From: Sipunculus nudus
Taxonomy: Eukaryota > Annelida > Sipuncula > Golfingiida > Sipunculidae
Length of the DNA: 64,000 nt
Direction: 5' to 3'
NCBI GenBank assembly: GCA_026874595.1
Contig: CM049321.1
Location: forward strand, 4,457,479-4,521,478
Shown here: positions 1-23,507 of the stretch, piece after piece
Layout: every line of letters starts with the position of its first letter
Numbering within the stretch: the stretch's first letter is position 1
Program-made: the position numbers and the translations under genes
The notes under the pieces: model-generated
Databases searched by the model: none
Told to the model about the DNA's origin: nothing
The model's input: only the letters and a program-made list of their open reading frames with translations

Positions 1-2440
1 ACATCACCACTGATACTACATCACAACTACATCACCACTGTTACCATATTGCAGCAACATCACCACTGTCACTATATCACAAAGACATCACCACTGATAC
101 TACATCACAACTACATCACCACTGTTATCATATTGCAGCAACATCACCACTGTCACTATATCACAAAGACATCACCACTGATACTACATCACAACTACAT
201 CACCACTGTTACCATATTGCAGCAACATCACCACTGTCACTATATCACAAAGACATCACCACTGATACTACATCACAACTACATCACCACTGTTACCACA
301 TAAAAACTACATCATCACTGCTACATATCATCACTACATTACCACTGATACCACATAACAACTACATCAACACTGATACGATATAACAAGTACACAACCG
401 CTGCTACCACATAAGAACTAAATCACCACTGTTACAACATCACAACTACATCACCACTGTTACCACATAAGAACTAAATCACCACTGCTACAACATCACA
501 ACTACATCACCGCTGTTACCACAACACAACTACATCTGCACTGTTACCACATCATAATTACATCACCGTCACTACATAACAACTATATCACAACAATTAC
601 CACTTCACAACTATATCACCACTGATAATACATCAAAACTACATCACCAATGATACCAAATTACCACTCCCTCACCACTGATACCACATCATGACTACAT
701 CACTACAGATACCATATCACCACTACATTACCACTGATACCACGTAACAATAAATCACTGTCACTGCATGAGAAAGACATCACAATTGTAACTACATCAA
801 AACTACAACAACACTGTTACCACATCAAAACTACATAACCGTTACTAGATAACAAATAAACACCACTGATACCACATAACAACTACATCATAACCATTAC
901 CACATCACAACCAGATCAGCACTGATACGATATAACAACTACATCACCACTGTTACCACATACCAACCAAATCAACACTGTTACCACATAACAACTAAAT
1001 CGCCATTGTTACCACATAACAACTAAATCACCACTGTTACCACATCACAACTAAATCACCACTGTTACCACATAACAACTAAATGACCACTGTTACCACA
1101 TCACAACTAAATCACCACTGTTACCACATAACAACTAAATCACCACTGTTACCACATAACAACTAAATCACCACTGTAACCATTTAATAACAACATCACT
1201 GTCACTGCATGAGAACCACATCACCACTGTTACCACCTCAAAACTAATTACCGTTTACCACAGCACAATTACATCACCACTTTTATTGAATCACAACTAC
1301 ATCACAATTGTAACCACATCAAAAGTACATCATTTCTGTTACCACATAGCAACTACATCACCATTTCACCACATGACAACTGCATCCCCACGGTCAGTGC
1401 ATGACAACTACATCACAAATGTAACTACATCACAACTACATTTTCACTGATACCACATAACAAAATCACCACACTTACAACATCATAACAATATCCCTAC
1501 TGTTACAACATCACAACTGCATCACCACTGATACCACATCATAACCTCATCACCACTGATACCACATCACAACTACATCACTGTCACTGCACGAGAAACG
1601 CATCACCCTGACAACTACATCACAACTACAACACCATTGATACCACATCACAAGTACATCATCACTGTTACCACATCACAACTACAACTGTTAGCACATC
1701 ACAACTACAACACCACTGATACGACATAACAACTACATCGCCACTGTTACCATATTACATCTAAATCACTACTGTTACCATATCACAACTACATCACCAC
1801 TTTTACCACATCGCAACTACATCACCACTATTACCGTATCAAAACTACTACATCACACCACTGATACCACATAACAACTAGATAACCATTGATACCACAT
1901 CAAAACTACATTCACCACTGATACCACATCACAACTGCAACTGTTAGCACATCACAACTACAACACCACTGATACGACATAACAACTACATCGCCACTGT
2001 TACCATATTACATCTAAATCACTACTGTTACCATATCACAACTACATCACCACTTTTACCACATCGCAACTACATCACCACTATTACCGTATCAAAACTA
2101 CTACATCACACCACTGATACCACATTACAACTAGATAACCATTGATACCACATCAAAACTACATTCACCACTGATACCACACAAGAACTACATCACTGTT
2201 ACTGCATGATAAAAACATCACCATTGTAACCAATACTACAGAAATACTGTCAATGCATGACAACTACTTCACAAATGTAATTACATTACAATTACATCAC
2301 CACTGTTATCACATCAAAACTACATAACCGCTGATACCCCACCAAAACTACATCACCTCTGTCATTGCATGACAACTACATCACAATGTAACTACATCAC
2401 CACTATATCACCACTGATACCACAAAACAAATACAGCACC
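1..2440. repeat. 28-bp satellite, forward block
   Basis: Degenerate tandem repeat of a unit of about 28 bp, read here as ACATCACCACTGTTACCACA followed by about eight more bases. Larger periods are visible: an 84-bp trimer repeats three times near 51, 135 and 219, and a 253-bp block (about nine units) is duplicated, with starts near 1688 and 1941. The long Thr/His/Tyr-rich open frames are by-products of a 28-bp unit, which keeps a frame open over three units. There is no sign of transcription or coding. Confidence 0.95.
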
Positions 2441-2479
2441 ACTGCAGTGAGAATGGAAATGTAGTTGTCACGGCATCAG

Positions 2480-2690
2480 GACAACTACCCCCTGGACAAT
2501 TACCCCCGACAGTAACCCCCTGGGCAATTAACCCCTTAGACAAATACCCCCGAGACAATTACCCCCCAGGACAATAAACCCCCTCGGACAATTACCCCCC
2601 CCCCCCCCGACAACTACCCCCCAGGCAATTACCCCCGGTACCAATACCCCCGTGACAACTACCCCCAGGACAATTACCCCCATGGTATCA
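2480..2690. repeat. C-rich minisatellite at the satellite orientation switch
   Basis: About twelve short degenerate units of the type ACAATTACCCCC, including a run of 14 C at 2595-2608. Left of it the satellite reads ACATCACCACTG; right of it the satellite reads as the reverse complement, CAGTGGTGATGT. Spaced C-runs on one strand (G-runs on the other) could form an i-motif or G-quadruplex. That is inference from composition. Confidence 0.85.
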
Positions 2691-2699
2691 GTTGTTATG

Positions 2700-5600
2700 T
2701 AGTTGTCATGCAATAACAGTGCTGATGTAGTTGTGCTGTTATAACAGTGGTTATAAATTGTGATTTGGAATCATTCATAATGGAGTTGTGATGTGGTATC
2801 AATGGTGATGTAGTTGTGATATGTTTACAATGGTGATGTATTTGTTATGTTATAACAGTGGTGATGGTTGTATCACTGGCGATGTAATTGTTATGTGTTA
2901 ACAAAATGATGTAGTTGTGATGTGGTTAAAGCGGTGATGTAGTTGTCATGCAGTGAGAATAGTGATGTAGTTGTGATGACAAATACATCACCACTGCCAC
3001 TGCACGACAACTAATTTACCACTGTGATCATATTACAATTACCATATGCAATGACAGTGATGATGTAGTTTTGGTGGGGTATCAGTTGTCATATACTTGA
3101 GATGTGATAACATTGGTGATGTAATTGTAATGCAATTACATTTGTGAAGTAGTTGTCATGCAGGATTGGTGTAGTTGTGATGTGGTATTAGTTTTGATGT
3201 AATTCTGATATAGTTACAGTGGAGATGTAATTGTAATATGATCACAGTGGTGAAGTGTAGTCATGATGTGGTATCAGTGGTAATGCAGTTTTAATATATG
3301 TAATAGTGGTGTTGTTGTTGTTATGTGGTATCAGTGGTGATGTAGTTGTGATGTGGTTAAATTGGTGATGTATTTGTGATGTGGTAACAGTGTTGTTGTA
3401 GTTGTGATGTAGTTACAATGGTGATGTGTTTCTCATAAAGTTGACAGTGATGTTATTGGTATGTTGCATCAGTGGTAATGTAGTGGTGTTATTTTATCAG
3501 TGGTGATGTAGTTGTGATGTTGTAAGAGTGGTGGTGTTTGTTATGATGTGGTATCAGTGGTGATGTATTTGTTATGTGTTAACAGTGGTGATGTAGTTGT
3601 TCTGTCGTATCAGTGGTGATGTAATGGTACTGTGGTGTAAGTGGTGAGGTAGTTTTGATCTGGTATCAGTGGTCATGTATTTATGATGTAGTAAGTGATG
3701 TTACACTGGTGATGCGGTTGTAACTCTTCATCACCACTCTCACTGCAGTGGTGATGCAGTTGTTTTGAGGTATCAGTGGTGATCTAGTGGTGATGTAGTT
3801 ACATTTGTGACATAGTTGTCATGCAGTGACAGTATTGGTGTAGTAGTGCTGTGATAACAGTGGTAATAAAATTGTGATTTGGAATCATTCATAATGGAGT
3901 TGTGATGTGGTATCAATGGTGATGTAGTTGTGATATGTTTACAGTGGTGATGTATTTGTTATGTTATAACAGTGGTGATGGTTGTATCCCTGGCGATGTA
4001 ATTGTTATGTGTTAACAGAAATGATGTAGTTGTGATGTGGTTAAAGTGGTGATGTAGTTGTCATGCAGTGAGAGTAGTGATGTAGTTGTGATGACAAATA
4101 CATCACCACTACCACTGCATGACAACTAATTTACCACTGTGATCATATTACAATTACCATATGCAATGACAGTGGTGATGTAGTTTTGGTGGGGTATCAG
4201 TTGTCATATACTTGAGATGTGATAACATTGGTGATGTAATTGTAATGCAATTACATTTGTGAAGTAGTTGTCATGCAGGATTGGTGTAGTTGTGATGTGG
4301 TATTAGTTTTGATGTAATTCTGATATAGTTACAGTGGAGATGTAATTGTAATATGATCACAGTGGTGAAGTGTAGTCATGATGTGGTATCAGTGGTAATG
4401 CAGTTTTAATATATGTAATAGTGGTGTTGTTGTTGTTATGTGGTATCAGTGGTGATGTAGTTGTGATGTGGTTAAATTGGTGATGTATTTGTGATATGGT
4501 AACAGTGTTGTTGTAGTTGTGATGTAGTTGCAATGGTTATGTGTCTCTCATAAAGTTGACAGTGATGTTATTGGTATGTTGCATCAGTGGTAATGTAGTG
4601 GTGATATTTTATCAGTGGTGATGTAGTTGTGATGTTGTAAGAGTGGTGGTGTTTGTTATGATGTGGTATCAGTGGTGATGTATTTGTTATGTGTTAACAG
4701 TGGTGATGTAGTTGTTCTGTCGTATCAGTGGTGATGTAATGGTACTGTGGTGTAAGTGGTGAGGTAGTTTTGATCTGGTATCAGTGGTCATGTATTTATG
4801 ATGTAGTAAGTGATGTTACACTGGTGATGCGGTTGTAACTCTTCATCACCACTCTCACTGCAGTGGTGATGTAGTTGTTTTGAGGTATCAGTGGTGATCT
4901 AGTGGTGATGTAGTTACATTTGTGACATAGTTGTCATGCAGTGACAGTATTGGTGTAGTAGTGCTGTGATAACAGTGGTAATAAAATTGTGATTTGGAAT
5001 CATTCATAATGGAGTTGTGATGTGGTATCAATGGTGATGTAGTTGTGATATGTTTACAGTGGTGATGTATTTGTTATGTTATAACAGTGGTGATGGTTGT
5101 ATCACTGGCGATGTAATTGTTATGTGTTAACAGAAATGATGTAGTTGTGATGTGGTTAAAGTGGTGATGTAGTTGTCATGCAGTGAGAGTAGTGATGTAG
5201 TTGTGATGACAAATACATCACCACTGCCACTGCATGACAACTAATTTACCACTGTGATCATATTACAATTACCATATGCAATGACAGTGGTGATGTAGTT
5301 TTGGTGGGGTATCAGTTGTCATATACTTGAGATGTGATAACATTGGTGATGTAATTGTAATGCAATTACATTTGTGAAGTAGTTGTCATGCAGGATTGGT
5401 GTAGTTGTGATGTGGTATTAGTTTTGATGTAATTCTGATATAGTTACAGTGGAGATGTAATTCTAATATGATCACAGTGGTGAAGTGTAGTCATGATGTG
5501 GTATCAGTGGTAATGTAGTTTTAATATATGTAATAGTGGTGTTGTTGTTGATATGTGGTATCAGTGGTGATGTAGTTGTGATGTGGTTAAATTGGTGATG

Positions 5601-7716
5601 TATTTGTGATGTGGTAACAGTGTTGTTGTAGTTGTGATGTAGTTACAATGGTGATGTGTTTCTCATAAAGTTGACAGTGATGTTATTGTTATGTTGCATC
5701 AGTGGTAATGTAGTAGTGATATTTTATCAGTGGTGATGTAGTCGTGATGTTGTTAGAGTGGTGGTGTTTGTTATGATGTGGTATCAGTGGTGATGTATTT
5801 GTTATGTGTTAACAGTGGTGATGTAGTTGTTCTGTCGTATCAGTGGTGATGTAATGGTACTGTGGTATAAGTGGTGAGGTAGTTTTGATCTGGTATCAGT
5901 GGTCATGTATTTATGATGTAGTAAGTGATGTTACACTGGTGATGCGGTTGTAACTCTTCATCACCACTCTCACTGCAGTGGTGATGTAGTTGTTTTGAGG
6001 TATCAGTGGTGATCTAGTGGTGATGTAGTTACATTTGTGACATAGTTGTCATGCAGTGACAGTATTGGTGTAGTAGTGATATGGTATCAGTGGTGATGTA
6101 GTTGTTTTGAGGTATCAGTGGTGATCTAGTGGTGATGTAGTTACATTTGTGACATAGTTGTCATGCAGTGACAGTATTGGTGTAGTAGTGATATGGTATC
6201 AGTGGTGATGTAGTTGTGATGTGTTAACAGTGGCATGTAGTTGTGAAGTAGAATCAGTGGTAATATTGTAATAATGGTGATGAAGTTGTGATGTGGTTAA
6301 AGTGGTGATGTAGATACATTTGTGGAGTAGTTGTAATGAAGTGAGAGTGGTGATGTAGTTGTGATGTGTTATCAGTGGTCATGTAGTTGTGATGTGTTAT
6401 CAGTGGTCATGTGGCTGTGATGTGGTATCAGTAGTGATATATTTGTGATGTGAAAACAGTGGTGATGTTGTTGTGATGTAGTATCACTGGTGATGTAATT
6501 GTAATGTGTTAACAGAACTGATGTGGTTAAAGTGGTGATGTAGTTGTCACGCATTGAGAGTGGTGATGTAGTTGTAGCCCGTTGAGAGTGGTGATGTAGT
6601 TATCACCCGGTGAGAGTGGTGATGTAGTTGTGATGTGGTATCAGTGATGATGTGGAATTAGTGGTGTTGTAGTTGTGAAGTGGTAACAGTGGTGATGTAG
6701 TTGTAATGTGGTATCATTGGTGATGTGTTTTTGATGTGGAATCAGTGGTGATGTAGTGTTGATATTGTGTCAATGGTGATGTAGTTGTGATGTGGTTAAA
6801 TTGGGAAAGAAGATACATTTGTAATGTAGTTGTCATGCAGTGAGAGTGGTGATGTAGTTGTGATGTGTTATCAGTGGTGATGAAGTTATGATGTGGTATC
6901 AGTGGTGTTGCAGTGTTGATATTGTGTCAATGGTGATGGAGTTGTGATGTGGTTAAAGTGGTGATGTCGATACATTTGTGATGTAGTTGTCTACAAAGAA
7001 AGTGGTGATGTAGTTTTGATGTGGTAACAGAAATGTAGTTATGATGTGGTTTAAGTTTTGATATAGATACATTTGTGATGTAGTTGTCATGCAGTGAGGG
7101 TGGTGATGTTTTTGTGATGTGGCTTTAGTGGTGATGTAGTTGCGATGTAGTTGGGATGTACTATCAGTGGTGATGTAGTGGTAATATTGTAATGGAAATG
7201 ATGAACTTGTCATGTGGTTACAGTGGTGATGCAGTTATCTTGCAGAGACAGAGGTGATGTAGTTCTGATATGGTAATGGTTCAGATGTAGTTCTGATATG
7301 GTGTCAGTTGTGATGTAGTTGTGATGTGGAATCAGTGGTGATGTAATGTTGATTTTTTGACAATGGTGATGTACTTGTGATGTGGTTAAATTGGTGATGT
7401 AGGTACATTTATGATGTAGTTGTCTTGCAGTGAGACTGGTGATGTAGTTGTGATGTGTTATCGGTGGTGATGAAGTTATGATGTTTTATCAGTGGTGATG
7501 TAGTTGTGATGTGTTATCAATGGGGATGAAGTTATGATGTGGTATCAGTGGTGATGTGGTTGTAATGTGGTATTAGTGGTGATGTGGTTGTAATGTGGTA
7601 TCAGTGGTGATATGGTTGTGATGTAGTATCAGTGGTGATGTAGTTGTGATGTGGAATCAGTGGTGATGTAGTTTTTATGTGGTGTCAGTGGTGATATAGT
7701 TGTGATGTGATAACAG
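2700..7716. repeat. 28-bp satellite, reverse block with 1115-bp higher-order repeat
   Basis: The same unit in reverse orientation (GTGATGTAGTTGTGATGTGG plus about eight bases). A higher-order unit of 1114-1115 bp is present about three times: the landmark TGATTTGGAATCATTC starts at 2761, 3875 and 4990. The copies differ by few substitutions. The third copy ends in a local 112-bp duplication (TGTTTTGAGG at 5991 and 6103). Each copy contains a short stretch in the opposite orientation (near 2985-3050, 4095-4165 and 5210-5280) and a perfect 10-bp inverted repeat CATCACCACT / AGTGGTGATG. Confidence 0.93.
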
Positions 7717-8744
7717 ACTGGCCCAGTCCATGAAATATTTATGACTTAATTGTTGCTTCTGGCAGAGAAATCAAACGTTCCCGCGTTGTACGCACTTAGT
7801 ATCGGTACCGCCATCTTGCGGCAACTCATATAACTAATTTACCACTATATGACCCTCTTATCTCATGGATTTGTAATCTTGGACGGTGACCGGACGGGCA
7901 GCGCCACACATCACCGCCTCGCTGAATTAAGGTCTTTTCCATTGACGTCAGCGGTAGTCTTTCCTAGAATCATTTTCAAAACCAACATGGTTCATTCAGT
8001 CATCGCCTATTCCGGGCTTCCCATTTGCTACTAATATTCCCATTTAATGTGTCTTAATATATTTAGGCCGTCGCTTATGTTGTGTTCGGCGAGACTTTAA
8101 ACACAATAACCCTCAGCCTCAGTGTAAACGTTTATCGGACCACCACTCTTGACAGTAGGCCTAACAAACTCTGCCTCAGCCCATCAGCGCGAGATATTCT
8201 GGTGCACACCCGACGAGCGCAGTCAAAATGTACCGGCTGAATGAAACGATCACGATTCGCGAGTCGCAATTTGACAGTTAATACATGGGTTCAGACAAAT
8301 TCTTCCAGCTGTTCTTGTCTTCTCAGCAGAGGAAATTTTACTGGACCTGTCGGTACAAAATTGTTGCGATGGTGTCTACAATATGCACTTACGTTTAGAG
8401 CATGGACCGTTATATTCGTTCAGCAGAGATATATCATAGGAATACCTGATTTCATTGCGAATGTTACCAAGCGGGTCGAGCTGTGGGACCGCTGTTGGCG
8501 TTCTTATAGCGACGAAGCCACTCACATGAGGCGTGATGGCCTGATATGCAAATACGGGGTATCGTCAAGTCCTCAATGAGCCTTGTGACGCCTTAATATG
8601 CACATATCAGGGATTCACCCTATGGACTTTACAGGGCATTAGTGAAAAGAGCTGGCACTGAGTTTAGTCTATCGGTACATGAAATCACGATTTATTTTAA
8701 GCATTTTATTAGAAAACGCAAATACTAAAGCCCAGGCAGGGCTA
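7717..8744. other. 1-kb non-satellite island inside the satellite, possible inserted element
   Basis: About 1028 bp of complex sequence, clearly richer in GC than the surrounding satellite. The 12-mer ATGTGATAACAG stands immediately on both sides (7705-7716 and 8745-8756). It could be a target-site duplication, but similar strings recur in the satellite, so this is weak. The ends (ACTGGCCCAGTCC and CAGGCAGGGCTA) are only loosely inverted. Open frames at 7849-8034 and 8241-8579 (plus strand) resemble nothing I know. A CRE-like TGACGTCA lies near 7944. It may be a non-autonomous transposon or a gene fragment; I cannot tell. Confidence 0.5.
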
Positions 8745-10950
8745 ATGTGATAACAGTGGTTATGTAATTGTAATGTAGTTACATTTGTGAGGTAGTTGTC
8801 ATGCACTGATGGCATTCATATAGTTGTGATGTGGGTTCAGTGGTGATATAATTGTGATGTGGTTAAAGTGGTGATGTAGATGTGATGTGGTATCAGTGGT
8901 AATGTATTTGTGATGTGGTTTTAGTGGTGATGTAGTTGTGATGTGGTATCAGTGGTGATTTAGTTGCAATGTGGTATCAGTGGTGATGTAGTTGAGATGT
9001 GGTATCAGTGGTGTTGTAGTTGTAATGTGTTATAAGTGGTGATGTAGTAATATTTTTTAAGTAGTTCTTATGCAGTGACAGTGGTGATTTAGTTGTGAGT
9101 GGGTATCAGTGGTGATGTAGATGGCATGCAGTGAGAATGGCGATGTAGTTGTGATGTGGTATCAGTGGCGATGTAGTTGTAATGTGGTATCAGTGGTGAT
9201 GTAGTTGTGAAGTGGTAACAGTGGTGATGTAGTTGGGATGTGATATCAGTGGTGATGTGGTAACAGTGGTGATATAGTTGGTATGAGGTATCGGTGGCGA
9301 TGTTGTTTGCATGTGGTTTATAGTTGTGATGTGGTTTCAGTGGTGATGTGGTTATGATGTGGTTTTAGTGGTGATGTAGTTGGTATGTGGTAACAGTGGT
9401 GATGTAGTTCGGATGTGGTATCAGTGGTGATGTATTGGTATGTGGTATCAGTGGCGATCTTGTTGGTATGTGTTTTCAGTGGTAATGTGGTATCACTGGT
9501 GATGTGTTTTTGATGTGGAATCAGTGGTGATGTAGTATTGATATTGTGTCAATGGTGATGTAGTTGTGATGTGGTTAAATTGGGAAAGTAGATACATTTG
9601 TAATGTAGTTGTCATGCAGTGAACGTGGTGATGTAGTTGTCATGTGTTATCAGTGGTGATGAAGTTATGATGTGGTATCAGTGGTGTTGCAGTGTTGATA
9701 TTGTGTCAATGGTGATGGAGTTGTGATGTGGTTAAAGTGGTGATGTCGGTACATTTGTGATGTAGTTGTCTACAAAGAAAGTGGTGATGTAGTTTTGATG
9801 TGGTAACAGAAATGTAGTTGTGATGTGGTTAAAGTGGTGATATAGATACATTTGTGATGTAGTTGTCATGCAGTGAGGGTGGTGATGTTTTTGTGATGTA
9901 GTTGTAATATTGTAATGGAAATGATGAACTTGTCATGTGGTAACAGTGGTGATGTAGTTATCTTGCAGAGACAGAGGTGATGTAGTTCTGATATGGTAAT
10001 GGTCAGATGTTGTTCTGATATGATATCAGTTGTGATGTAGTTGTGATGTGGAATCAGTGGTGATGTAATTTTGATTTTTTGACATTGGTGATGTACTTGT
10101 GATGTGGTTAAATTGGTGAAGTAGTTACATTTGTGATGTAGTTGTCTTGCAGAGAGAGTGGTGATGTAGTTGTGATGTGTTATCAGTGGTGATGAAGTTA
10201 TGATGTGGTATCAGTGGTGATGTAGTTGGGATGTGGTATCAGTGGTTATGTGGTTGTGATGTGGTAACAGTGGTGATATAGTTTGTATGAAGTATCAGTG
10301 GCGTATTGTTTACATGGGGTTTCAGTGGTGATGTAGTTGTGATGTGGTTTCAGTGGTGATGTAGTTATGATGTGGTTTCAGTGGTGATGTAGTTGGTACG
10401 TGGTAACAGTGGTGATGTAGTTCGGATGTGGTATCAGTGGTGATGTAGTTGGTATGTGGTATCAGTGGCGATCTTGTTGGTATGTGTTTTCAGTGGTGAT
10501 GTAGTTGTAATGTGGTATCAGTGATGATGTAGATGCGATGTGGTATTAGTGGTGTTGTAGTTGTGATGTGGTAAAAGTGTTGATGTAGATGTGATATGGT
10601 AACAGTTGTAAAGTAGTTGTACCATGGTATCAGTGGCGATGTAGTTGTGATGTGGAATCAGTGGTGATGTAGTTGTAATGTGGTATCAGTGGTGATGTAG
10701 TTGTGAAGTAGTAACAGTGGTGATGTAGTTGTGAAGTAGTAACAGTGGTGATGTAGTTGTGAAGTAGTAACAGTGGTGATGTAGTTGTGAAGTAGTAACA
10801 GTGGTGATGTAGTTGTGAAGTAGTAACAGTGGTGATGTAGTTGGGATGTGGTATCAGTGGTGATGTAGGTGTAATTTGGTAACAAGAGTGATGTAGTTGT
10901 AATGTGGTCACAGTAGTGATGTAGTTGATCTGCAGTGACAGAGGTGATGT
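8745..10950. repeat. 28-bp satellite, continuation after the island
   Basis: Same orientation as the block before the island. Roughly 9505-10250 is a second copy of about 6726-7520 with internal deletions, so duplicated satellite flanks the island. At 10701-10840 there are five identical 28-bp units (TTGTGAAGTAGTAACAGTGG plus eight bases), the most homogeneous stretch of the array. The array ends at a (TA)n tract near 10955-10977, about 550 bp beyond the 3' end of the receptor gene. Confidence 0.92.
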
Positions 10951-10984
10951 ACTGTAAATATATATATATATATATATGTAATGT

Positions 10985-11513
10985 TATGTAAAAGTATGGT
11001 CTGTGTATCTCTTTTAAAAAGAGAGGAACCGTAAGCTTCTAATCTTGAACAGTTTAATACGTGATCATTAATATACTATTGAGATTAAGTAATTTGTTTC
11101 TTCATCCGAGGGGGGGGGGTCATTCTAACAGTTAAATACAGACCTCTATCTCGACCGTTCAAGCAGATTTAACAAATTTATCGTTTCCACATAACCATTC
11201 GGATAGGCCGGCTTTGTGAAATGTGTTTATGTCTAGTAACTATTGTAACCTGTGTTAAATGCTATTAACACCTGCAGTTAGCCAGGCTTTAAAAATGCAA
11301 TTAAAAGTAACATTAAATATTTCACCAAAGTCTTGTAATAATCTAAGTTAAAAAATCTGCAATATTGAACCCGACCTAAAATTACTGTGCCAAAAATGTT
11401 GACAATAACCGTATTATTATAAAACACTTAAGCAAGAGCACAAGGAAATGTTATGAGCTGAAGCAGAAAAATTGTATATAATACAAGTACCGAAAATCTC
11501 CTGAGGATTATAT
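10985..11513. other. Receptor 3' flank, no gene seen
   Basis: AT-rich unique sequence between the satellite and the last visible receptor exon, with a nine-G run near 11109. I looked for a P-loop or another NACHT exon on the minus strand and found none. Confidence 0.6.
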
Positions 11514-11519
11514 TTTATT
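11514..11519 (-). terminator. Candidate polyadenylation signal of the short receptor form
   Basis: AATAAA on the minus strand 10 nt after the read-through stop codon of exon 9. It would suit an intronic polyadenylation product. The hexamer is common in AT-rich DNA, so this rests on position only. Confidence 0.4.
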
Positions 11520-11528
11520 GTGATTTAT

Positions 11529-11816
11529 CTATATATTACAGGGCCCTTCTGTAAACATAATTTTATTCTGATAAAGGCTACCCTGGAAGATGTTGTTATA
11601 AATAAATACCTTGGAAAACATTTCAGTGTAGCTGGTCAGTCGATCCTGTTTCTTGCTGTCTGAGCGGACCCAGACAAGGGCAACGTAGACCTCATCCATA
11701 GGAACCATCACGCGGGCGTCATGCCAAATCCACAGGTCTATCTTGTCGTACAAATTAACCAGGGTCTCGGCTAATAGGCGCTGTAGATGGTCCCTTACAG
11801 GAACTTGTGTTGATTC
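11529..11816 (-). CDS. Receptor exon 9: cytosolic pre-NACHT-like segment, possible alternative terminal exon
   Basis: Spliced form 11816-11610, 69 codons, phase 0 at both ends, with a GTATTT donor. The pattern LVNLYDKIDLW, then VPMDEVYVALVWV, then LTSYTEMF matches what I know of the segment preceding the P-loop in invertebrate NACHT/STAND proteins (a '+Y..i.l.PW....l.DiYv.L.l' block followed by 'l.sy..lF'). The P-loop would lie in the next exon, which is not found between here and the window edge. If the donor is ignored, 26 more codons run to a TAG at 11531-11529, followed about 10 nt later by AATAAA (11519-11514), giving a short-tailed receptor. Confidence 0.7.
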   Translation of the reverse strand, partial: ESTQVPVRDHLQRLLAETLVNLYDKIDLWIWHDARVMVPMDEVYVALVWVRSDSKKQDRLTSYTEMFSKVFIYNNIFQGSLYQNKIMFTEGPCNI

Positions 11817-14800
11817 CTCTGTTTAAACAAAAAAGATGCATTTTATCGTTTTAAGGAATAATGTACATACGGATTAAAATGACTAAATATTAAACTAATG
11901 AAAACATACATGGTTATATTTTACTCAAGTGACTGGCCCTGATGATTTAATAATAATTCATTTTGTTTTTTGTTTTACTGATTTCCTTTAAATTATAGAC
12001 AGCATGCGTGTCTGGCGTATTCATTACGCCATACCAAATATTTTCTTTAGCGGACGTTTAAATAAAAGTCAAAGCGTAGTATTAGTTAAATGTTATTGTA
12101 TAATACAGACCAATCAAGGGCATTTCTTCAGCCTTTGAAATCGCAGACCTCTGCTTACTGGTGTTCTTTTTCTGTTGTAATAAAAACAGTTTGTAATTTC
12201 TAATGTATGCCATTGTGGTAAATGTTTAAAGCCACCCCTTCTTGATGTTTAAAATATATCGTCTGTGCCTTTACAAGGCTACATGGTAAAAAAATTGAAT
12301 TTATAATATCATTGTTTGTCGTTTAATACGGAGAATTATGCCAATTCAGCGATACCACCTCGATTGTATGCTGAATGCGAATTTTATACTTACTCTTTCA
12401 CAAAGGCAGTAAATCGCAGCACTGATGATAACAACGAGAACTAACAGGATTCCAACACATATCACAACAACCGTTACAAGGTTTGCACTCCTATCGCCAA
12501 TATCTGCCAGAACAAAGAGTATCTATATAAAGTTGTTAAACATTTAAATAAATGGACAAACAGTCCATGTTTAGGCTGGTTTTATGGAGTCAAAATATTG
12601 ATCGAATCATTTTCGAATCAAATGCATTATCTATCATTAGGTGTCCATGTTCTTTATACATTTTGCATACCTGCTTGGATTGTCTGATTTACGGATGGCC
12701 ATTTCGTTGATTTTATGGTTGCTACTGGAACAGAAAATGTAATCTGGTTAAACAAAGTAGGATATACATCCCAAATGAAAGGTCTCAGTGTAAACTTTAC
12801 GTAAGTAGCGACAGTTATTAGTCAATCAATTGACTACAAATTAAAAAGTATTCTAGTAATATCACAATTTATCACATACCTGCTTGGATTGTCTGATTTA
12901 CGGATGGCCATTCCGTTGATTTTATGCTTACTGCGAGAACAAAATGAAATGTGATTATACGTTGCAACATTTATCAGCCAATCAAATGCCTACCAAATGT
13001 TTACCAAGTGATATCATAAGTCATTTTTGAAATTGTGGACCTCACATAATTGTCTATAATATGCACGTCTTAATTTCACTCAGAAGGAGAGCCAAGAGTC
13101 TTCTGCTAACACACCTGACCAGCTATTTATATTTGAGGAGCACTGTCTCAGCTCTTAAAATGATTATGAGATTGGCTTGATTCGTGAAAAGTAATAACAA
13201 TTTAATTAAACATTAGTTCGTCTCACTATAGTTAGCATACATTCAAATACTGACAGTTTGCAGGATAAATTGATTGCTGCTAAGGGTGACTGCTTACGTT
13301 CTTTGTTTACACATATGACAGGCGCCTTAAATTGACACGATGTAGCTCTCAGCTTCCAGTCGGATATGGTTTTGTTGAGTGTGGCACAATGACCTCGTTC
13401 TGAGGGTTCCCCATCTGCCCACAAAGCGTTCCACAGTTCTCCTGCGTGGTACAGTATTATTAGAAATCATATTTCTGTAAAGGTACATGTTGGACCGCAA
13501 ACATTTGGTCATAGGTGTTCTTTCACGTCCTGGCGGTCCTGACCAGGAAAGAAAATACATTGAATATGCATGTTTCACTACGTGTATGATGCTGACTTTG
13601 AAAGTAATATGGTCCTATGCCTGGCCAATCAGGTGTTCAATACATTTCAATGAGGATAGCTACACAACATTAAGCATTAATTATGAACTGTAAAACAACA
13701 TTTTTTAAGATCAGTTGAAAGCATGATGTAAACACACTTCGTTTAATAATAATGTTATTCAATTTCGACATACAAAATTTACCTTCATGCTTTCTTAACT
13801 TGGACCTGAGTGCGAGTCAAATATATAAAGATTTGCAAATCAATAACGTCCTTCCTAACCTAACAAAAGGTCAGGGCTTTTATTTTTAAGATAATCGATA
13901 ATAATTTCAATCGTACTGGATAGAAAACGCTATAGACTTCAATTTGTATACACTTTCTATGATTCAGAGCAAATTTTATACTTCCTTACTTCTAAGCATC
14001 TATGGTTTTCTTTGAATCAGAAATATTAAGAGAATATGTCACATTCATGTCTAGATATCAAGAAAAGGACAGACAAGTCGAACAGGGATCAACCTGTTCC
14101 AATACACTTAATATCAAACAGGGACAACATATACATGAACATGTTACATATATCATTAAATAGTGGGCTGCCTGTCGAGTTTAATTTTGTGTGGGTTTTG
14201 CAAAGTTTTGATCAACACCATCACAGTAAACATTGAGACATCTTTTTTATAGGGTTCAAATTGTATTGGTTGAATCACACACTATTGTCATCATGTCAAC
14301 ATACATTTAGTCCTGAGGTGATCTTCCTGTGTCAGTATAGCTCTAGGTCACTATGCATTCATATCACTATTTATCCACATATCGTTGAACTCATCCCCTA
14401 GGCTATTGTAATGCTGTTCGCTCATTGGTTGCTACCTGAGCGAACTAGTCCCAGTCTGAGTTCCCACTGGGTGGCTTATGGTCTACTAGATCTACCCGAT
14501 CTGTGCTTTTAACTGACGCTTTAATCATACACAACGTGTCTAACAGGAAGTTGATTTAAATGTTAATAACAGCCTGATATAACTGGTGAAAAAACCATGG
14601 AATATATGGAAATATATGAAAAGAATAAAGAATGAAAAGGTATTTGGATATTTTACACAAGCGCATTGTGTGTGTTATGGATATGGGTATATTCTGAAAG
14701 CCTTTACCTATAATCCTTAATTTCTCAAATTCCTAAACATAATCCCTTAAAAGTTTAGTTATATTATCAGCTACAAGCTATAAGCAGACAATAACCTTGC

Positions 14801-17800
14801 ACAACAGCTGCTGACCCATGGAGAGCTAGGTCACTGGAGATAATAAAAGGTTATGCTATGACGCTGAAACAATTTTTTTCATTGGATCCTTTTACATAAG
14901 GTCAATCCTTAGTCTTTTACGGGCTCTGCTTATTAGAGAGCGCCTTATCAAATGGGGCATTGGTTTAAGTTATTTGTATATGAAAAGACTGTGGATATAT
15001 ATATTTTTTTTAATTTGGAACACAGAAGGGTTTCGAATCTGTCATCTAAATACCTGTGATTTTCGCGTCAGCATTGTATAGGTAACGATCTTTATTCTTA
15101 CCTGATTCTGTTCGAGTTTTCCTAAGAGGCAACCAGTCAATTCTTCTTAACCCAACCCAGAAGGTGTTGCAGACCCATTCTTTCATATTGAGCCGTTTCT
15201 TCAATACAGGATCAGTGACCGTTGCTAGTGGAGACCTGATTGCCTGGCAGAACACATGAGACTGGTGCCAAGTCATCTTTCTACAGTTGAACATGTAGCA
15301 CGTGCTATTGTACTCAATACAAGCCATGGGTCCTAGTCGTTTCATTAAGTCTTCACAGCCCTCTGGTAAAAAACCAAAAAAATAATTTATGTAACCATGA
15401 ATATCATATACCTGTTTTTTTTTTTTTTGTTTTTTTTTACTGTACGATGCAACACTGGCCTAAAGTTTATCATACATCGTTTGTCATAGAGAGAGGGAAA
15501 TTACTTATTCTGGTAGAGTGAACCTAACCTTATATTTAAGTTAAATCCAACTATAGTAAATAGTAAACTACAGTCTTACCTCTTTCATTCGCCAACCTTG
15601 GGACTAAGGGATTTATTGGCGGTAAGCGAGGGTGGCGGTTGATCGAGGGGTCAAAATGAGATGTGCAGAGTAGCTATAATCATACATTTCTTAGGCTTGT
15701 CTTTAACTAGTCATATTAAAAAAAATATTTTATACATTTATATAACTTTATTCACATAGAAATAAAAAAAACTACAAATAATTACTGAAAAATTCAGTGT
15801 GTACAATTTATTTGCAAAGATATACATGTATAATATATCCGGTCAAAATATAAAATTCTTCTGGTGCCATATCACTTTCATCCGAGTGTGCCCCAGAGAA
15901 TTCCGTAATGGAATGTAAAATGCGTCAGTATCGGACAGTTCCCTGTAGTTGAAGCTCTCAAAATATCATAAGACGGTGTTCTTGGCCTGACGGGCTTCAG
16001 TGGATGTGTGCGGAAGTGGGGAACTATTTCCTCAGGTTCAGAGGTTGGACCGGCTGTATCATCGTAGTCTGTCACTGTTACCACGATATCTTGATCGCTC
16101 AAAAGCTGTGCTGTTCCTATATTCTAATCGGCATTGGCGCATTCCTGATAAGACCTGCGTGCACTGTGGTCAATCTAGAGGCAATCTGTCACTCGTTGTA
16201 GAATAGGAAGGATAATGTTTATTCTGGACCGCCGTCCCGATCTGTTTCATTTTGCTGGTCACCCTTGGATAAATATCCTGTGTATTTCCAACAATTGCCG
16301 ATGGTGGAGCTACTGACAGAATTTCAGGCACGCTTCGTCCAGCGAACTGTGTCACTAAGGTAAATCCCCCTAGGTTCGCTATTGTCTTCACACGACATTT
16401 ATAAGCCGCTTGACCTCGTACCCCTGTTATTTGCTCCAAACTACTCATCCGTTTTGCTTCATTAAATGACACTTATCCAGACAACTCAAGGTGTGAAATT
16501 AACACGGGTGACTCTGCTGATGCCAGCTGGTTCCCAAAACAACTCGAGGGTGTTAAGTCATTAATTAATCAGTGGCACTTGATCCACAAGCAGTGAGGCG
16601 TGACATGTTGTAAACACAGACGCTGCCAGGTCAGCTGGGCCCAAGCGATAACACCCCGGCTTGTTAATTATTTCCGACTTGACTTAAATTGGAATGAGGA
16701 AGTTGCCGTATAATCAAGGGAATGTGGTACATAAGGTTTAAAAACCACCTGGCGGATGGCGGATTGCTAGGCTGGCAAATGAACGAGGTGAATAGGTAGT
16801 AAGGAAATCGGGACCATGTCATTTGTTGGCGATAGGCGAGGTTTTCGGATGAAGGAGGGGTGATTGAAAGAGGGTAGACTGTATTGCTTTATGTTGTACA
16901 GATTTCTGCATTTCTGAGCCTTGGTGACCATTTTATAATTCCAGGATTTTGGCTTCAAAATTTCTATCAATGTATTATATAGTAAAATGTTTTCAGACGG
17001 GATGACTCCATGGGTTATTTAAACAATTAGGTACTCTTTGAACTGATAGATTTGTCTGTAGATAAGACATGTGGTGCAACCGAATGTAGTATTATTTTGA
17101 TATTTTTGTTCTACTGAAACGTCCGGCCAAGGCCTGGATTATGAAAGGACAACTATTTCAAACCTTATATACAAAACAATGAGTATAAAAATTATACTGC
17201 ATAAAAAAATATTTACCTGATACTCCACACAACTGTCCAATATCTAGGCTGCATGGCGCCGACTTGATTTCTTCTATTTTCTGGTCGAAGAACGCACAGT
17301 CCTCGTCATGGTCACCAATGAGTTCGTCTGGAACAGAGAATTATTAAGAAACACTGAATTCTAAAATAATATTATTGTTAATGTTAAATATAATAATGAT
17401 AGATTTGGGATATTTCACACATTATGTTTATAAAAGATGTACATAAAGAGATAAACTGAATAATCTGTCCACTTTCTGTATATTCTGATCACGTAAACTG
17501 ATTTACTCATTAGCCATATCGGGGTTACAGACACACACAATTGTAAGAATAACATACCATTTAAGTATTACATAAATACATACTGACAAACCAAAGATAT
17601 AAATAAATATTGTATCATTGCTCACTATATTATTTTCATAAACTTAATAGTAATAGACACATACCTTCCTTTGTATCGTCCAGCCACGTCCATCCCGACA
17701 ACCTCGTCTTCCGTAGTGACATCCAGAGTGTTTGTATGTCCTTATCCTTGGCCGCTGATGTCACCATCTCTACCTTTGTCATGTTGTCAACAGAGGGCAG

Positions 17801-20800
17801 GGCCATGTTCTCAGACCGACAGCAGGCGGCAGCTTCATCAAACGTCATGTGTCCAACACAGGCACCTAAGAAATCAATAATAATGACGCTATGCTATTAC
17901 AATAACACTATTTCATTTCTCGTCAAAAATTAATATTTGTAAATGGTGAAAAAAGGTGGATTACGATCTTTTTAGGCTTTTTTTTTACAAACCCTTTCAC
18001 TAACTTGTTAAATGTAGCAAAAAGCGGTTTGTGGTACCTTTAAGCTGGTATTTTAAATTACTCAATTGTATTCATATATTCTATGTATTTCTCTGCTACA
18101 TTTATGGATATCAGTTAAAATATCTGGTACATAGATTTCTTGGAAAGTGAAGGGTCAGAACAGAGACATAATATGCATAAAAAAATGCCATGAGACATTT
18201 AATAGCGTTTCTCTATCATAATGTGTTGTACGCGGCTATATGGTGTCAGCCGGAAACAAAGGATGTTTAAAATAATAGAGTATGGTCTTTTTTATTTTAG
18301 TGAATACTTTGTGAAACTGATGCGCTTCTAAAAAGTTTTAACCAGTTTAAAAATTCATCCGAGAATTTAGTGGAGGTAAGTGGAAGTAATCAATTTTACA
18401 AGAAATCCTAAAGACGATTAAGTATATTTCGGCCGATTTATCCTGTAAGACCCTAACAAGGCGACCATTATATTAGCTCATATGAGAATTTAATTCAAAC
18501 AATTTGTGTTATAAATATGAGTAGGAAATGTGCAGTACTTCAAAAGTTACGATATCCAAAAGGAAGCCTATTTTTCGGCAGATTAGATCTTGGATGCAAG
18601 GTCAAGGCCAACAATTTTCAAAATCAACTGCAATATTGATGGTACAATTTGTGAATCAAATGTGCACTAAATGTAGAAGAGTCCGACTTCTCTGGTGCTC
18701 CAAAGCATGTTTGTGCTACATAGTTCGCAGAATATTGGTCATTGTGATCTCATTTTGAATTTCAAATAAGATTTTACCAAGACCTCCTTAGATGTCAAGT
18801 TAAAAGTTGCTGCGTTTTATTATTATGATTTGTGCCATGTTAACGGACGGTCGGGCGGAAGGACGATGGACCAAGACCGGTCGCTACAACCAAGCATGAA
18901 AGTCACCATGAGTACGTACAGAATGAGGGAATACCTTCTATTCACACTTTCTTTACCGTACGTTCCTTTAAATACCTTCTGTTGTCACGTAGAAAAACAG
19001 CGACGGCTCTATAAGTGAATAGTATATAGTACAATATTACGGTTGGCACACTTTTAATCTTTAACGTTGCCTTTATGACCTTATTGCCTCGATCACTTCA
19101 CAAGGGAAGATGGCACATCGAAAATGCTGTAGACTATTTATATCAGACATGATTAAATACCCGCGTCGTCTCTGGTGCTATGACCCGGCTATTCAAGCAA
19201 TATACACTCAAAGAAGAAGAAGATTACTTGCCTTGTACAAGCAGGATATAAAGTGTTTATACCTTGACATATAGTTCATGTCCCATGGTGGTGGACTAAA
19301 TGTGCATTCACATGAAAACCCTCTCATTAGTGTTTCATTAGGTCAATGTATTGCTGTTACAATGTTCATCAGCTCAACTATTTTGTTACTTTATTTTTTT
19401 AGATATTAAACAATAAGCAATGACCTGCCTGTTCATGAATTCGATATTTGAAATTAACTGTTAAAAGCATCCAAATCACAAGAATCATAACAAAATAGTT
19501 TTGAAGGGACTCATCAGGAAATATCTTTCAAAGTCAGATTTTGATTAGTCACAAAAATACCTTTGGAAGCACTCGAAATCTGGCAGATCACATTCATAAA
19601 TGGGTAATTATTCATAACCATTATTGAGGAATAATTAATAATTCATTAGATTGCGATGTGCCAGCTCGGACACAGGGGAGGGGTCAAGGGGTCCAGACCC
19701 CTCCACCCCCTCTTTCACCGCCGCAACCTTTTTTTAAGGATTTCAAACCTTTTCTTGTGGCAAGGACCCCACCCCCCCCGCCCTCCCCTTTTCCAGACCT
19801 GGGGACTTTCCTTTAGGATTAGACATTAGCCCCTGCCAAGCATGATACACGTATGTTCTCTTATCACGTTGATGCACTATCACGTTGATGCAACACATAC
19901 TAATATATCACTGACAGGTGATTAAAGAATTTCTCCAACGATCAGCATACTAAAAAAGTGGCGGGCTGAACTCGTACATGTGTTGGAGTTATCATAGGAC
20001 AGGTGCAAATCATGAGGCATGTTTTATTTTACTTAACGCCCAGTTTATTCGAAAGTCTCCTGTCGGGGCCCCCACCAAAGCTGTTGTGAATCACTTGTAT
20101 ATGTAACTTATCTGCGAATCTGTTTTCGGAACCATCACTGAAGCAGGCCTAATACGAGACTTTTATAATGCATTATAGTGTTAATTTGACTGGTACTTTT
20201 TTTCAGATTTTAAGATATATTTAAAGTGCTTCGGCTGATCTCCATTTAATGCAGAAGCGGATACAGGTGGTGGACAAACCCCCCCCCCCCCACATTTCAG
20301 ATGTAGCAAGCTTTAATGGTTTCAGGCCAATTTTTGCGGCCTAGTCCCCCCCCCCCCTTTCGGACCTGGGGACCTCCAGGTTATGTCAATAGTCCTCCTT
20401 GAGTGCACCTCTCCTTCTCCTAAATCCTAGATCTGCCTCAGCTGAGAGTGTTAATGATTTATCTCACTTTTTTACGCATGTGGCGAAGTGTGTTCTGTTA
20501 TCTAATGAATTACCGTTGTACAAATATAAGCATATTAGCCAAATACTTCAACCACCAGACACAGTTCTGCCCGGTACTATTAATGTTACGGGGCAAAATA
20601 TCTTGCATTCTTGGTCTATACATGTTATAAGAATACACTCAGTGTCTTTGCTAAGTCGAAATCATATTCATCACATGCTGATGAGAGCCCGAGTTATTAT
20701 TAAAGGTCATTCCGATGTGCACTGGCCCCAAATATATGCTCATGTAGGATACAGAGAATTTCATCATCAAGTCAGCACCTTGAAGTTTTTCTTTTCCCGT

Positions 20801-20805
20801 GTAAG

Positions 20806-20871
<66 letters not shown>

Positions 20872-21395
20872 GGTAGAGTTACCCTCCGTTGTAAAGTGCT
20901 CTATGGCCTACAGACGCAACTTGGTATGAGTATTGTAAATTTGTCTTTTATATTGCTTTTTATATTGTTTATTTGTATTGTGTATTTTCATTATATATGT
21001 GTATTTTATATTTATATCATATGTGTATACTACTGAAATGTTTACTGTACCCAGGACCCTATTAAATATCAGCTTACTTGCTACATGGGCTTCCTGGTAA
21101 AATATATTTGTATTAATTATAAACATTAAAACCACAATAAACCTCTGTGCCCTGTTATGTTCCAGTATTTCCCCGCCCAATCCTATTGTGCCCCCGAGGA
21201 CAATAGGATCAGTGTCAGTCATTTAATGCCCCCCCCCCCCCCCCAATACGCACGAAGCATAATCTCGTAATCTCGTAAAGTCTCGGCTTTTCAAACCACG
21301 CCGTTAGCTTCATTCTAACAACATTCACCTGATGATCGGGTCGCATCCCCTGAAACAGACTGTAGTGAATTTACAGTTTTGTTTTCCTTCAGAGT

Positions 21396-21459
<64 letters not shown>

Positions 21460-23507
21460 CAGATAGATATACACACACACATTTGGCCAATGTCTATAAA
21501 TATCGTCGGCCCCATTCACACTTAAAAGTAGTTTCCTGGGGAATACTCTTGACAGATGGGAAAAATTAAAAGCGACCCTTCCATAAGCATAAATAATCAA
21601 TGTTTGAAGCTTTCCGGAGTATTTTTATGTACATGTTTATCTTATTGCAAGCTGTTACAAGTTCAGAGATTTGCGTAATTACACAGTTTCAAAGTAATCA
21701 TATACTGATGGGTACATTTAGTGAATCAAGTTTGAGAGGAAATGGTGCACTACAGTTAGAAAAGTATGACTTTTGTGGTGCTCCAAAGCATGTTTGTACT
21801 GCAGAGTTTGCAGGATATAGGTCATTGTGACCTATTTTTGAGTTTCAAATGAGATTCTACCCGGACCTCCTTTAATGTAATATTTTATATTTCTGTAGAT
21901 GAGAAATTGAAATCCAAGGTCAAGGGCAACAGTTTTCAAAATCATCTTCTTTATCAATGTTAACAATCAGTGAATCAAAATTGATTAAAAGGATATGCAC
22001 CACTTTACATTAAGAAGAATTTGACTTCCATGGTTCTCCATAATATATGTTTGCTGTATAGTTCGCAGAATATATGTCACTGTGGCCTAATTGTGGGTTT
22101 TCAATGATAGATTTCCAAGACCTACCTGGATATTAAGTTGCTTTGTCTAACGGTTACGATTTGTGCCCTACTAACGGACGGAGGGGCGACGGACAAAGAC
22201 CCAGCATTAAAGTCAGCTGAGCTAAAAAGAGTATGTTAGAATACCTTCTATTCACACTGTCTTGTGTTTACGTTAACCTAACATCCCTTGAAATACTCTG
22301 CTGTCAAGTAGACAAAAAACAGTGACATCTCTATCAGATAACTGCTTACGTTTCCTTTATGATCTTATCGCCCCGATCAATACACAAGGGTACACTGGGT
22401 CTTTACAAGATGGCACATCGATATGCCTGTAGACTATTTATATCAGACATGATTAATTAACGCGTTATCTCTGGTGCTATGACCCGGCTATTCACGCAAA
22501 ACGCACTCAATGAAGACTCAATGCCTAATCTATACCTTGACATATATCTCATGACCCATGGTGGTGGTATAAATATACTCTAACATGTAAGTAAAATTAG
22601 GTTCTCATTAGGTTCTCTCTGGTATTACCTTAATGTTTTGCTGTCACAATGTTCATCAGCTCACTGCCATAACTATTCTGGTTACTTGAATATTTTGATA
22701 TTCAACAGTAAGCTATGACCAGCCTGGTCATGAATTCGATATTTGATCGTAACCGTCAAAGGCATGTAAATCACTAGACTCCTCACAAAATAGCTTTGAA
22801 TCATTCAAAATCAGGCAGATCACTTTCATAAATGGGTATTTATACATAAACATTATTCTGGGATAATAAATAATTCATTAAATTGCTATGTGCCAACTCC
22901 GACCAAGCAGAAACGGATATAGCGGAGTAGTCCTAGCGGTCTGGGGTCCCCCCCCCCCCCCCCCCCCAAGATCAGCGCACTAAAAAGTGGCAAGTTGAAC
23001 TCGTACATGTGTTGGGTGATCATAAGGCAGGTTGCAGATCCTGAGTCGGGTTTAATGTTACTGTATCTCCAGTTTATTTGAATGTCCCCTGTCGGGTCCC
23101 CAACAGAACTGTTGTGACCTATATGTATTTTGTAACTGACAATCGCCGAAAACGCGCTAAAAAGAGACCTCTATTATGCATTATTGTATTTTGGTGACTG
23201 GAACATTTTTTTCAATTTTCAAAGATATTTAAAGTGCTTCGGTTATTCTCCATTTAAAGTCACATTTTAAACAATTACAACAGTAAAACTATACCTTCTT
23301 GTGGCTCCCGTTACGTGTCCCTCCCCGTCACATGTATTTCACCTCAAGTGAGCATGTAATTGTACCCTATTATTTATTAATTATATAACATTGTTTGTAC
23401 GTGAAATCCTTTGAAATTAAGGATTTTCAATGGACCTTATGGAAATCAAACTTACCTTTAGTTATACCGAGGCTGCAAAGAAAGACAATCAGATAATTAA
23501 TCGCCAT
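11529..23507 (-). CDS. Transmembrane C-type lectin receptor with a pre-NACHT-like cytosolic segment (nine exons visible)
   Basis: Gene model built by hand from splice sites. Exons on the minus strand are 23507-23456, 17865-17665, 17327-17217, 15362-15102, 13441-13298, 12930-12880, 12724-12671, 12503-12394 and 11816-11610. All junctions are GT-AG. The extracellular introns are phase 1 and the intron after the membrane exon is phase 0. The sum is 1191 nt, exactly 397 open codons. Order of parts: signal peptide (about 1-17), CTLD1 (18-121), CTLD2 (122-256), twin stalk exons (257-273, 274-291), membrane helix (about 300-325), cytosolic segment (329-397). The likely role is cell-surface recognition of glycans or microbes coupled to a STAND/NACHT-type module inside the cell. 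The lectin folds are seen; the NACHT link is inferred from the last exon only. If the last exon is not spliced, the frame stops at 11529 (423 aa). Confidence 0.82.
12394..12503 (-). CDS. Receptor exon 8: transmembrane helix
   Basis: Residues 292-328. After a short polar lead (DIGDRSAN) comes a stretch of about 26 hydrophobic residues (VTVVVICVGILLVLVV and following), then YCLCER at the cytosolic face. The acceptor is phase 1 and the GTAAGT donor leaves a complete codon (phase 0), so the intron phase changes exactly at the membrane boundary. Together with the signal peptide this predicts a type I membrane protein. Confidence 0.88.
12671..12930 (-). CDS. Receptor exons 6-7: duplicated stalk exons
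   Basis: Two mini-exons, 12930-12880 (51 nt) and 12724-12671 (54 nt), are near-identical: both end in a shared coding block reading WPSVNQTIQA and the same GTATG donor, differing at a few residues and by one codon near the acceptor. Both are phase 1-1, so either can be skipped without shifting the frame. They form a short Thr/Ser-rich linker with an N-x-T glycosylation site each, between CTLD2 and the membrane. This is a recent tandem exon duplication. Confidence 0.85.
13298..15362 (-). CDS. Receptor exons 4-5: C-type lectin domain 2
   Basis: Exon 4 (15362-15102, residues 122-208) starts EGCEDLMKRLG, continues with CIEYNSTCYMF and MTWHQSHVFCQAI (the tW..A...C helix), and has FWVGLRR, the WIGL core. 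Exon 5 (13441-13298, residues 209-256) has WADGEPSERGHCATL and closes with DWKLRATSC...APVICV. This is a complete long-form CTLD. The EPS triplet stands where EPN would confer mannose-type binding, so calcium-dependent sugar binding is possible but altered. The phase-1 exon ends match their neighbours. Intron 4 (13442-15101) shows no other coding signal. Confidence 0.9.
15860..16472 (-). pseudogene. Frameshifted coding remnant inside receptor intron 3, unrecognised
   Basis: Two adjoining minus-strand frames look protein-like. One runs 16472-16170 and begins, after an internal Met, SSLEQITGVRGQAAYKC. A second frame (about 16190-15878) carries SDQDIVVTVTDYDD and then RPRTPSYDIL. A third frame near the end also reads plausibly (YRELSDTDAFYIPLRNS). 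Reading through needs at least two frame changes, so this looks like a decayed intronless copy of some coding sequence. Acidic, Pro- and Tyr-rich content suggests a cytoplasmic tail, but I recognise no family. No good splice sites link it to the receptor. Confidence 0.35.
17217..17865 (-). CDS. Receptor exons 2-3: C-type lectin domain 1
   Basis: Exon 2 (17865-17665, residues 18-84) carries MTFDEAAACCRSENMALPSV, the usual 'W/F..A...C......L..' start of a CTLD, and a WMSL...GWTW core like the WIGL motif. Exon 3 (17327-17217, residues 85-121) gives the C-terminal half with HDEDCAFF and two closing cysteines, ending QLCGVS. Both exons are bounded by phase-1 introns. The domain lacks the usual N-terminal strand with its CxxGW and CY cysteines and shows no EPN or QPD sugar-binding triplet, so it may be a structural or protein-binding CTLD. 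Confidence 0.85.
18560..21400. repeat. Duplicated repeat block, copy A (receptor intron 1)
   Basis: Matches copy B (about 21860-30290) in the same order over most of its length. Shared landmarks include a GATTTGTGCC...AACGGACGG end (18830 and 22147), AAGATGGCACATCGA (19107 and 22409), TGTTAATGATT (20448 and 23577), a divergent single 257-bp unit (about 20575-20830 against the array), and TCTCGTAAAGTCTCGG (21271 and 30173). Divergence is moderate, so the duplication is not recent. A poly-C-rich MITE-like insert at about 20253-20440 lies where copy B has the receptor signal exon. The open frames here are not genes. Confidence 0.75.
20810..20869. repeat. (TA)n microsatellite
   Basis: Uninterrupted TA dinucleotide tract at the end of the single-copy 257-bp homologue in copy A. 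It corresponds in position to the (TA)n that closes every unit of the array in copy B. Confidence 0.95.
21397..21480. repeat. (TA)n-(GA)n-(CA)n compound microsatellite
   Basis: A TA tract of about 26 bp runs into about 33 bp of GA, then GATA and CA repeats. It lies at the right end of duplicated block A. Confidence 0.95.

Follow-up and report, generated by a model that had tools for sequence, protein, structure and literature searches.

NLRs are generally presented as cytosolic sensors. A locus in the genome of the sipunculan Sipunculus nudus raises the question of whether recognition outside the cell and a NACHT module inside it can be carried by one chain. The locus lies in a 64,000-nucleotide stretch of DNA, hereafter the window (assembly GCA_026874595.1, contig CM049321.1, here C16; C16:4457479-4521478), in which an earlier note had read a membrane C-type lectin receptor running into a segment of the kind that precedes NACHT domains. 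Judged from the genome sequence, the locus very probably belongs to a multigene family of type I receptors composed of a signal peptide, two C-type lectin domains, a stalk, a membrane helix, a basic piece, a linker, a NACHT domain and a tail resembling leucine-rich repeats (LRRs), with the window copy itself most likely decayed.

The layout is seen whole in a paralog at C2:86044269-86055618 (11.4 kb), where nine GT/AG exons with matching phases give a 1,045-residue chain without an inner stop. Its parts follow in the order signal peptide, lectin 1, lectin 2, membrane helix (Kyte-Doolittle 2.53), a KKQKKKK juxtamembrane piece, linker, one long NACHT exon and LRR-like tail. This domain order, the exon phases, both Walker motifs, the single membrane helix and the open frame of the paralog from start to stop are read directly from the sequence. 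Pfam places Lectin_C twice in the chain (E 2.9e-20) and NACHT once (E 2.6e-18, above its cut-off), with the Walker A motif GEPGVGKS and the Walker B motif FIFDGYDE; NPHP3_N, another NTPase model, also lies above its cut-off (E 7e-6). Additionally, the NACHT exon matches PDB entries 5irm, 5irn and 5irl (E 1.5e-4, residues 76-327), which carry the table label uncharacterized protein and which we take to be NOD2. Compared with tripartite vertebrate NLRs, the NACHT and following region of the C2 chain are related to solved members, whereas the N-terminal effector domain is missing; the Pfam scan of the C2 protein found no CARD, PYD, death, BIR, TIR or similar effector domain. The single-chain lectin-NACHT receptor proposed in the earlier note has its counterpart in the C2 paralog, which joins the parts in one reading frame, but not in the window, where the NACHT exon is broken. 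Loci at 16.08 Mb on C12 and 19.82 Mb on C17, which are more distant in sequence, repeat the C2 order of lectin exons, membrane helix, linker and NACHT, as read by eye from open frames. A locus on C6 (11.51 Mb) has the same order of parts and meets a stop as its NACHT exon begins; because this stop falls between the acceptor and the NACHT domain, C6 was rejected as the intact reference and C2 was taken instead.

The receptor gene of the window lies on the minus strand. As first read, it was a join of nine exons, and this join holds as to strand, AG acceptors and GT donors throughout, and 397 open codons. Exon 1 (23456..23507) contains the start codon and the signal peptide MAINYLIVFLCSLGITK and ends in phase 1; its C2 counterpart is MAVTYLLVFLCSLRMIQ at C2:86044269. 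Just upstream of it begins a 257-bp tandem repeat (25 copies at 99% matches, 23699-30125). Exons 2 (17665..17865) and 3 (17217..17327) encode the first and second halves of lectin domain 1, and exon 4 (15102..15362) the first half of lectin domain 2, each supported by Pfam, the exon join and relatives elsewhere in the genome. Exon 5 (13298..13441) encodes the second half of lectin domain 2 and has EPS at the usual place of EPN. Exons 6 (12880..12930) and 7 (12671..12724), both phase 1-1, are near-identical stalk repeats, and neither has a counterpart in the C2 model. Exon 8 (12394..12503) encodes the membrane helix, with a mean Kyte-Doolittle value of 3.59 over 19 residues. All of these parts had been named in the earlier note and are borne out by hydropathy, by the likeness of exons 6 and 7, and by two Lectin_C stretches in the window protein that pass the Pfam cut-off (E 5e-17). 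With a hydrophobic stretch at its N-terminus, a single membrane helix and basic residues directly after it (exon 8b, below), the product is predicted by hydropathy to be a type I membrane receptor.

The calcium- and sugar-binding motifs of C-type lectins are EPN or QPD and WND. By eye, lectin domain 2 has EPS in the window, C2 and C6 copies, and no WND was seen in either lectin domain of the window or C2. With the usual motifs incomplete, glycan binding by these domains is putative. Among solved structures, the lectin domains are nearest in sequence to CD205/LY75 and other multi-lectin receptors (PDB 7jpt and others). Receptors of the CD205/LY75 type combine numerous lectin domains with a short tail in the cytosol, and differ from the family described here in having no NACHT.

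Comparison with C2 reveals a tenth exon that the nine-exon join had missed. Exon 8b (12111..12171, phase 0 in and 1 out) encodes a basic juxtamembrane piece, KKNTSKQRSAISKAEEMPLI, that aligns with EEIPLKEL of C2; the C2 counterpart of the exon is KKQKKKKGRYVSNEEIPLKEL, and a similar exon is found in C6. The linker exon of C2 begins in phase 1. Exon 9 of the window (11610..11818, phase 1 in and 0 out) has the acceptor CAGAG, of which the first AG (11820-11819) is usable in phase because exon 8b lies in between, whereas joining exon 8 directly to exon 9 requires the weaker second AG. The donor of exon 8b, TTG|GTCTGT, scores 2.0 bits; this and the other donor and acceptor scores use human base frequencies. 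Such a poor donor fits decay of the window copy.

Where exon 9 ends decides whether the receptor continues at all. The exon had been read to 11529, and the window, with no next exon in it, first suggested that it was terminal; in that case the gene would encode a plain type I lectin with a tail ending at 11531 and a poly(A) signal at 11519, or, with exon 8 joined to the first AG, a lectin with a very short tail. An AATAAA does lie at 11519, just beyond the stop after exon 9, the donor of exon 9 is the weakest of the nine in the original join (5.4 bits), and the direct join from exon 8 to the first AG reaches a stop after seven codons. The opposite is indicated by a codon test for which exons 1-8 and two further open frames from the window served as the training set. 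None of the 166 open intron windows compared, which overlap and span 69 codons each, reaches the score of exon 9, whereas the last 26 codons before the stop, beyond the donor, resemble non-coding DNA, their score being equalled or exceeded by 1516 of 1703 equally long intron windows. Since these codons look like intron, coding appears to end at 11610, and 11529 is merely the end of the open frame. Furthermore, exon 8b restores the phase for the first AG, relatives of exon 9 precede NACHT exons, and C2 reads on into NACHT. The codon test and the genome search together overturned the terminal reading, which we regard as very unlikely in either form. Exon 9 is thus taken to continue, through an intron whose first part occupies 1..11609 and which runs left out of the window for a total of 26.5 kb, toward a NACHT exon.

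The link between exon 9 and NACHT, which the earlier note had drawn from family knowledge, is upheld by the arrangement of its relatives across the genome of the window (1.43 Gb, 153 contigs). As a genome query, exon 9 has at least 149 matches including itself (150 of 155 candidates scored), the best non-self match having E 2.3e-20 and 69% identity. The 58 best of these (E up to 1.1e-5, window included) were compared with 98 of 99 NACHT matches, all above the Pfam cut-off; because 98 of 417 NACHT candidates were scored, the proximity counts are lower bounds. Counting downstream on the same strand, at least 23, 26 and 36 of the 58 linkers have a NACHT match within 2, 10 and 50 kb; on the upstream side, 0, 0 and 6 do, among the matches listed. 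The means under random placement are 0.02, 0.13 and 0.9 (some contig sizes rounded). The 50-kb count can include the NACHT of a neighbouring gene, as the six upstream cases show. The order of parts thus supports exon 9 as the exon preceding the NACHT exon.

The lectin side of the family is arranged in the same sense. An ectodomain query gave at least 124 matches (122 of 777 candidates scored), of which 87 were used in the linker comparison and 81 in the NACHT comparison; four rows from the window and 33 weaker than 1.1e-5, many of which sit in a different kind of open frame, about 380 residues long, were left out, as were six second-half lectin exons in the NACHT comparison. Among 90 linker matches with E<1e-3 (window included), at least 32 have a lectin row on the same strand no more than 12 kb upstream and three have one downstream; within 3 kb, the numbers are at least 20 and 0 among the matches listed. 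For the 98 NACHT matches, again among those listed, a lectin exon lies upstream within 12, 20 and 50 kb in 18, 20 and 26 cases and downstream in 2, 2 and 4. Moreover, at 30 linker loci (window included), a membrane helix with a basic end, as counted with an exon-like filter of our own devising, lies within 1.5 kb upstream in 17 and downstream in one. Contig C17 carries 55 of the 98 NACHT matches listed, and 23 of the best 30 exon 9 matches lie at 2.3-4.9 Mb on it; judged by these matches, C17 carries a large receptor cluster.

The same material bears on whether two adjacent genes have been taken for one: one for a short-tailed membrane lectin and another, with the linker exon as its start, for a cytosolic NACHT protein. 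Linkers with no upstream lectin row exist (58 of the 90, among the matches listed, at up to 12 kb), so that linker-NACHT genes may occur without lectins. Linker-to-NACHT distances are long in the C17 cluster, where 9 of the 23 linkers at 2.3-4.9 Mb have a NACHT within 60 kb downstream among the matches listed, eight of these nine at 15-48 kb, and the one-chain model is drawn from genomic sequence. Against two genes stand the C2 exons for membrane helix, juxtamembrane piece (8b), linker and NACHT, which are phase-compatible, bounded by GT and AG, and form one open chain; order and strand are likewise kept at unlinked loci. Such a pair of genes has very little probability in our estimate.

Other points count against the one-chain reading, alongside the unaccompanied linkers and the weak donor and AATAAA of exon 9. 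The splice sites of C2 were picked by hand to keep the frame, in a model built from the genome alone, and its linker exon has no GT at the donor position of the family, so that a GT six bases on was used. The C2 tail is LRR-like by eye, with LRR_4 (E 0.24) and LRR_NXF1-5 (E 0.016) both below the Pfam cut-offs, and a PDB search with it gave no match at E up to 1. Among the matches listed, 22 of the 58 best linkers lack a scored NACHT within 50 kb downstream. Exon 9 alone, for which a Pfam scan had been proposed as a check, has no useful match in Pfam, PDB, PADLOC, NCBIfam or the protein database; its weak rows are one at chance level from NCBIfam (E 0.052) and three from the PDB (E 0.3-0.86), and no NLR is among them. 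Neither exon 9 nor the whole chain matched anything in a collection of 5.8 billion proteins; because the lectin domains too matched nothing there, this null is read as a gap in the collection and not as evidence. One chain with the linker joined to NACHT remains the preferred reading for the family.

For the window copy, the NACHT exon has to be sought outside the window, in whose six frames neither a strict nor a loose P-loop pattern is found. In the 100 kb to the left (from C16:4357479), the strict pattern in six frames also missed it, and it was recovered from the list of open frames. It begins at C16:4442561 and runs down on the same strand from a phase 0 acceptor, 26.5 kb from exon 9 and about 14.9 kb left of window base 1. 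This distance is not odd, because those in the C17 cluster are similar. The exon reads EPAEQRGHMIYLSGEPRVGKST to FLLDDYDE and then stops, after 108 codons, giving 526 codons in total with the receptor. Relative to C2, its reading frame is interrupted by at least four stops and shifts twice, and there is a gap of 21 residues. Its NACHT score is 22.2 bits against a cut-off of 26.7, with nSTAND3 ranked higher (23.3 against 27.2). By these sequence measures, the window locus does not encode an acceptable NACHT STAND NTPase, and as assembled it cannot make a whole receptor because the NACHT exon is broken. The copy is most likely a decayed or decaying member of the family; at best, it might yield a truncated receptor of about 526 residues, maybe a decoy.

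The intron between linker and NACHT contains 28-bp minisatellite arrays at window positions 1-2444, 3170-7716 and 8821-10927. The corresponding intron of C2 also holds a minisatellite of 28-bp period (65 copies) with similar-looking units, and the arrays are listed at L059 4311-6142 and L010 5498-5894.

Could the window copy be functional after all, through another NACHT exon missed by the assembly or by the search of the 100-kb left flank, or through an LRR-like exon end without NACHT? An intact LRR-like exon end, open over 255 residues, does lie between exon 9 and the broken NACHT exon (C16:4454544-4453780, L009), 14.5 kb from exon 9 and with no NACHT found in front of it. It is unexplained on the reading of a decayed copy and weighs on the side of a functional one. 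It stands closer to C2 (dS 0.46) than does the LRR part of the broken exon (dS 0.88). Stops are also absent from the lectin and linker exons, and their ratios of nonsynonymous to synonymous substitution (dN/dS) to C2 are low: 0.27 for lectin 1, 0.18 for lectin 2 and 0.14 for the linker, with 0.54 for the membrane helix and exon 8b. A pairwise value, however, cannot assign the branch on which constraint acted. Values of 0.24 and 0.42 are obtained for the broken NACHT exon as well, and most pieces of the window gene have a dS to C2 that is close to 1 or higher; low dN/dS is for both reasons a sign of past constraint on the family and not of present function of the window copy. Searches with the NACHT exons of C2 and C6 found no other NACHT from C16:4357479 to the end of the window, and the donor of exon 8b is poor. 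A functional window copy is accordingly unlikely, and decay remains the favoured account of it.

The earlier note had presented a membrane-bound NLR as unlike the cytosolic NLRs of vertebrates. The C2 paralog does have this layout; membrane-bound NLR-like proteins are already in print for other invertebrates. Among the closest is AjNLRC4 of the sea cucumber Apostichopus japonicus, which was tested as a membrane receptor and reported for Vibrio (PMC8699970). Like the family described here, it combines extracellular recognition domains, a membrane helix and an intracellular NACHT in one chain; it differs in its immunoglobulin (Ig) ectodomain, two predicted membrane helices and absence of LRRs (PMC8699970). 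The S. nudus family has Lectin_C twice in place of Ig, one membrane helix, an LRR-like tail and many loci. AjNLR-new of A. japonicus also combines NACHT, membrane helices and Ig, in a reversed arrangement with NACHT outside the cell and Ig inside (PMC13133943). NACHT-LRR proteins with predicted membrane helices are found in sea anemones, where the helices number three to five and are N-terminal (PMC5094078), and in the sponge Dysidea avara (PMC12909245); the available parts of both papers describe no lectin ectodomain.

Large NACHT families and expanded receptor families are likewise known. The pearl oyster has more than 200 NACHT genes, forming a large and partly clustered family like the one here, with death or HEPN domains at the N-termini and the term C-type lectin absent from the main text (PMC9646362), and Aplysia has four NACHT proteins (PMC9334734). 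An oyster TRADD-N expansion shares the plan of an extracellular domain, a membrane helix and an intracellular immune module in an expanded family, but has DED and TRADD-N inside and a cysteine-rich ectodomain outside (PMC8195603). In the accessible text on Mnemiopsis, the named NACHT and lectin protein architectures are not joined (PMC11797021), nor are NACHT and lectin in that of a cnidarian survey (PMC8260672). No description of a C-type lectin ectodomain on a NACHT protein was found in the titles and abstracts searched, a coverage with subscription papers mostly outside it. As far as that literature goes, membrane-bound NLR-like proteins are published for sponges, sea anemones and, with Ig, sea cucumbers, and the C-type lectin ectodomain is what differs.

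How such a receptor might work is suggested by its layout. The lectin domains would lie on the outside of the cell and take a glycan or a protein as ligand; its binding would cluster the receptors, and clustering could let the membrane-tethered NACHT domains exchange nucleotide and oligomerise into a signalling platform under the membrane. Because no CARD, PYD, death or TIR domain was found in the chain, the receptor would have to recruit a partner. We lean, by a small degree, toward a wider reading in which dozens of one-chain receptors would use a diversified lectin pair outside to drive NACHT inside, as a surface NLR system sensing microbes before entry, held largely on one contig for rapid turnover and leaving broken copies by birth and death. 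If so, NLR-style signalling would take place at the cell surface with no adaptor between sensor and switch, and the echinoderm receptors that join Ig, membrane helix and NACHT would be no lone oddity but the same layout with another ectodomain. The C2 gene, open and compact, could be expressed directly.

Elsewhere in the window, the minus strand carries an open frame for a glycerophosphodiester phosphodiesterase at 39223-40299 (E 3.7e-39) and a sulfotransferase-like open frame at 48725-49855 (E 3.4e-13). Reverse transcriptase pieces are present at 61319-62176 on the minus strand (E 1.3e-26) and, more weakly, at 45567-45800 on the plus strand (E 0.0071).

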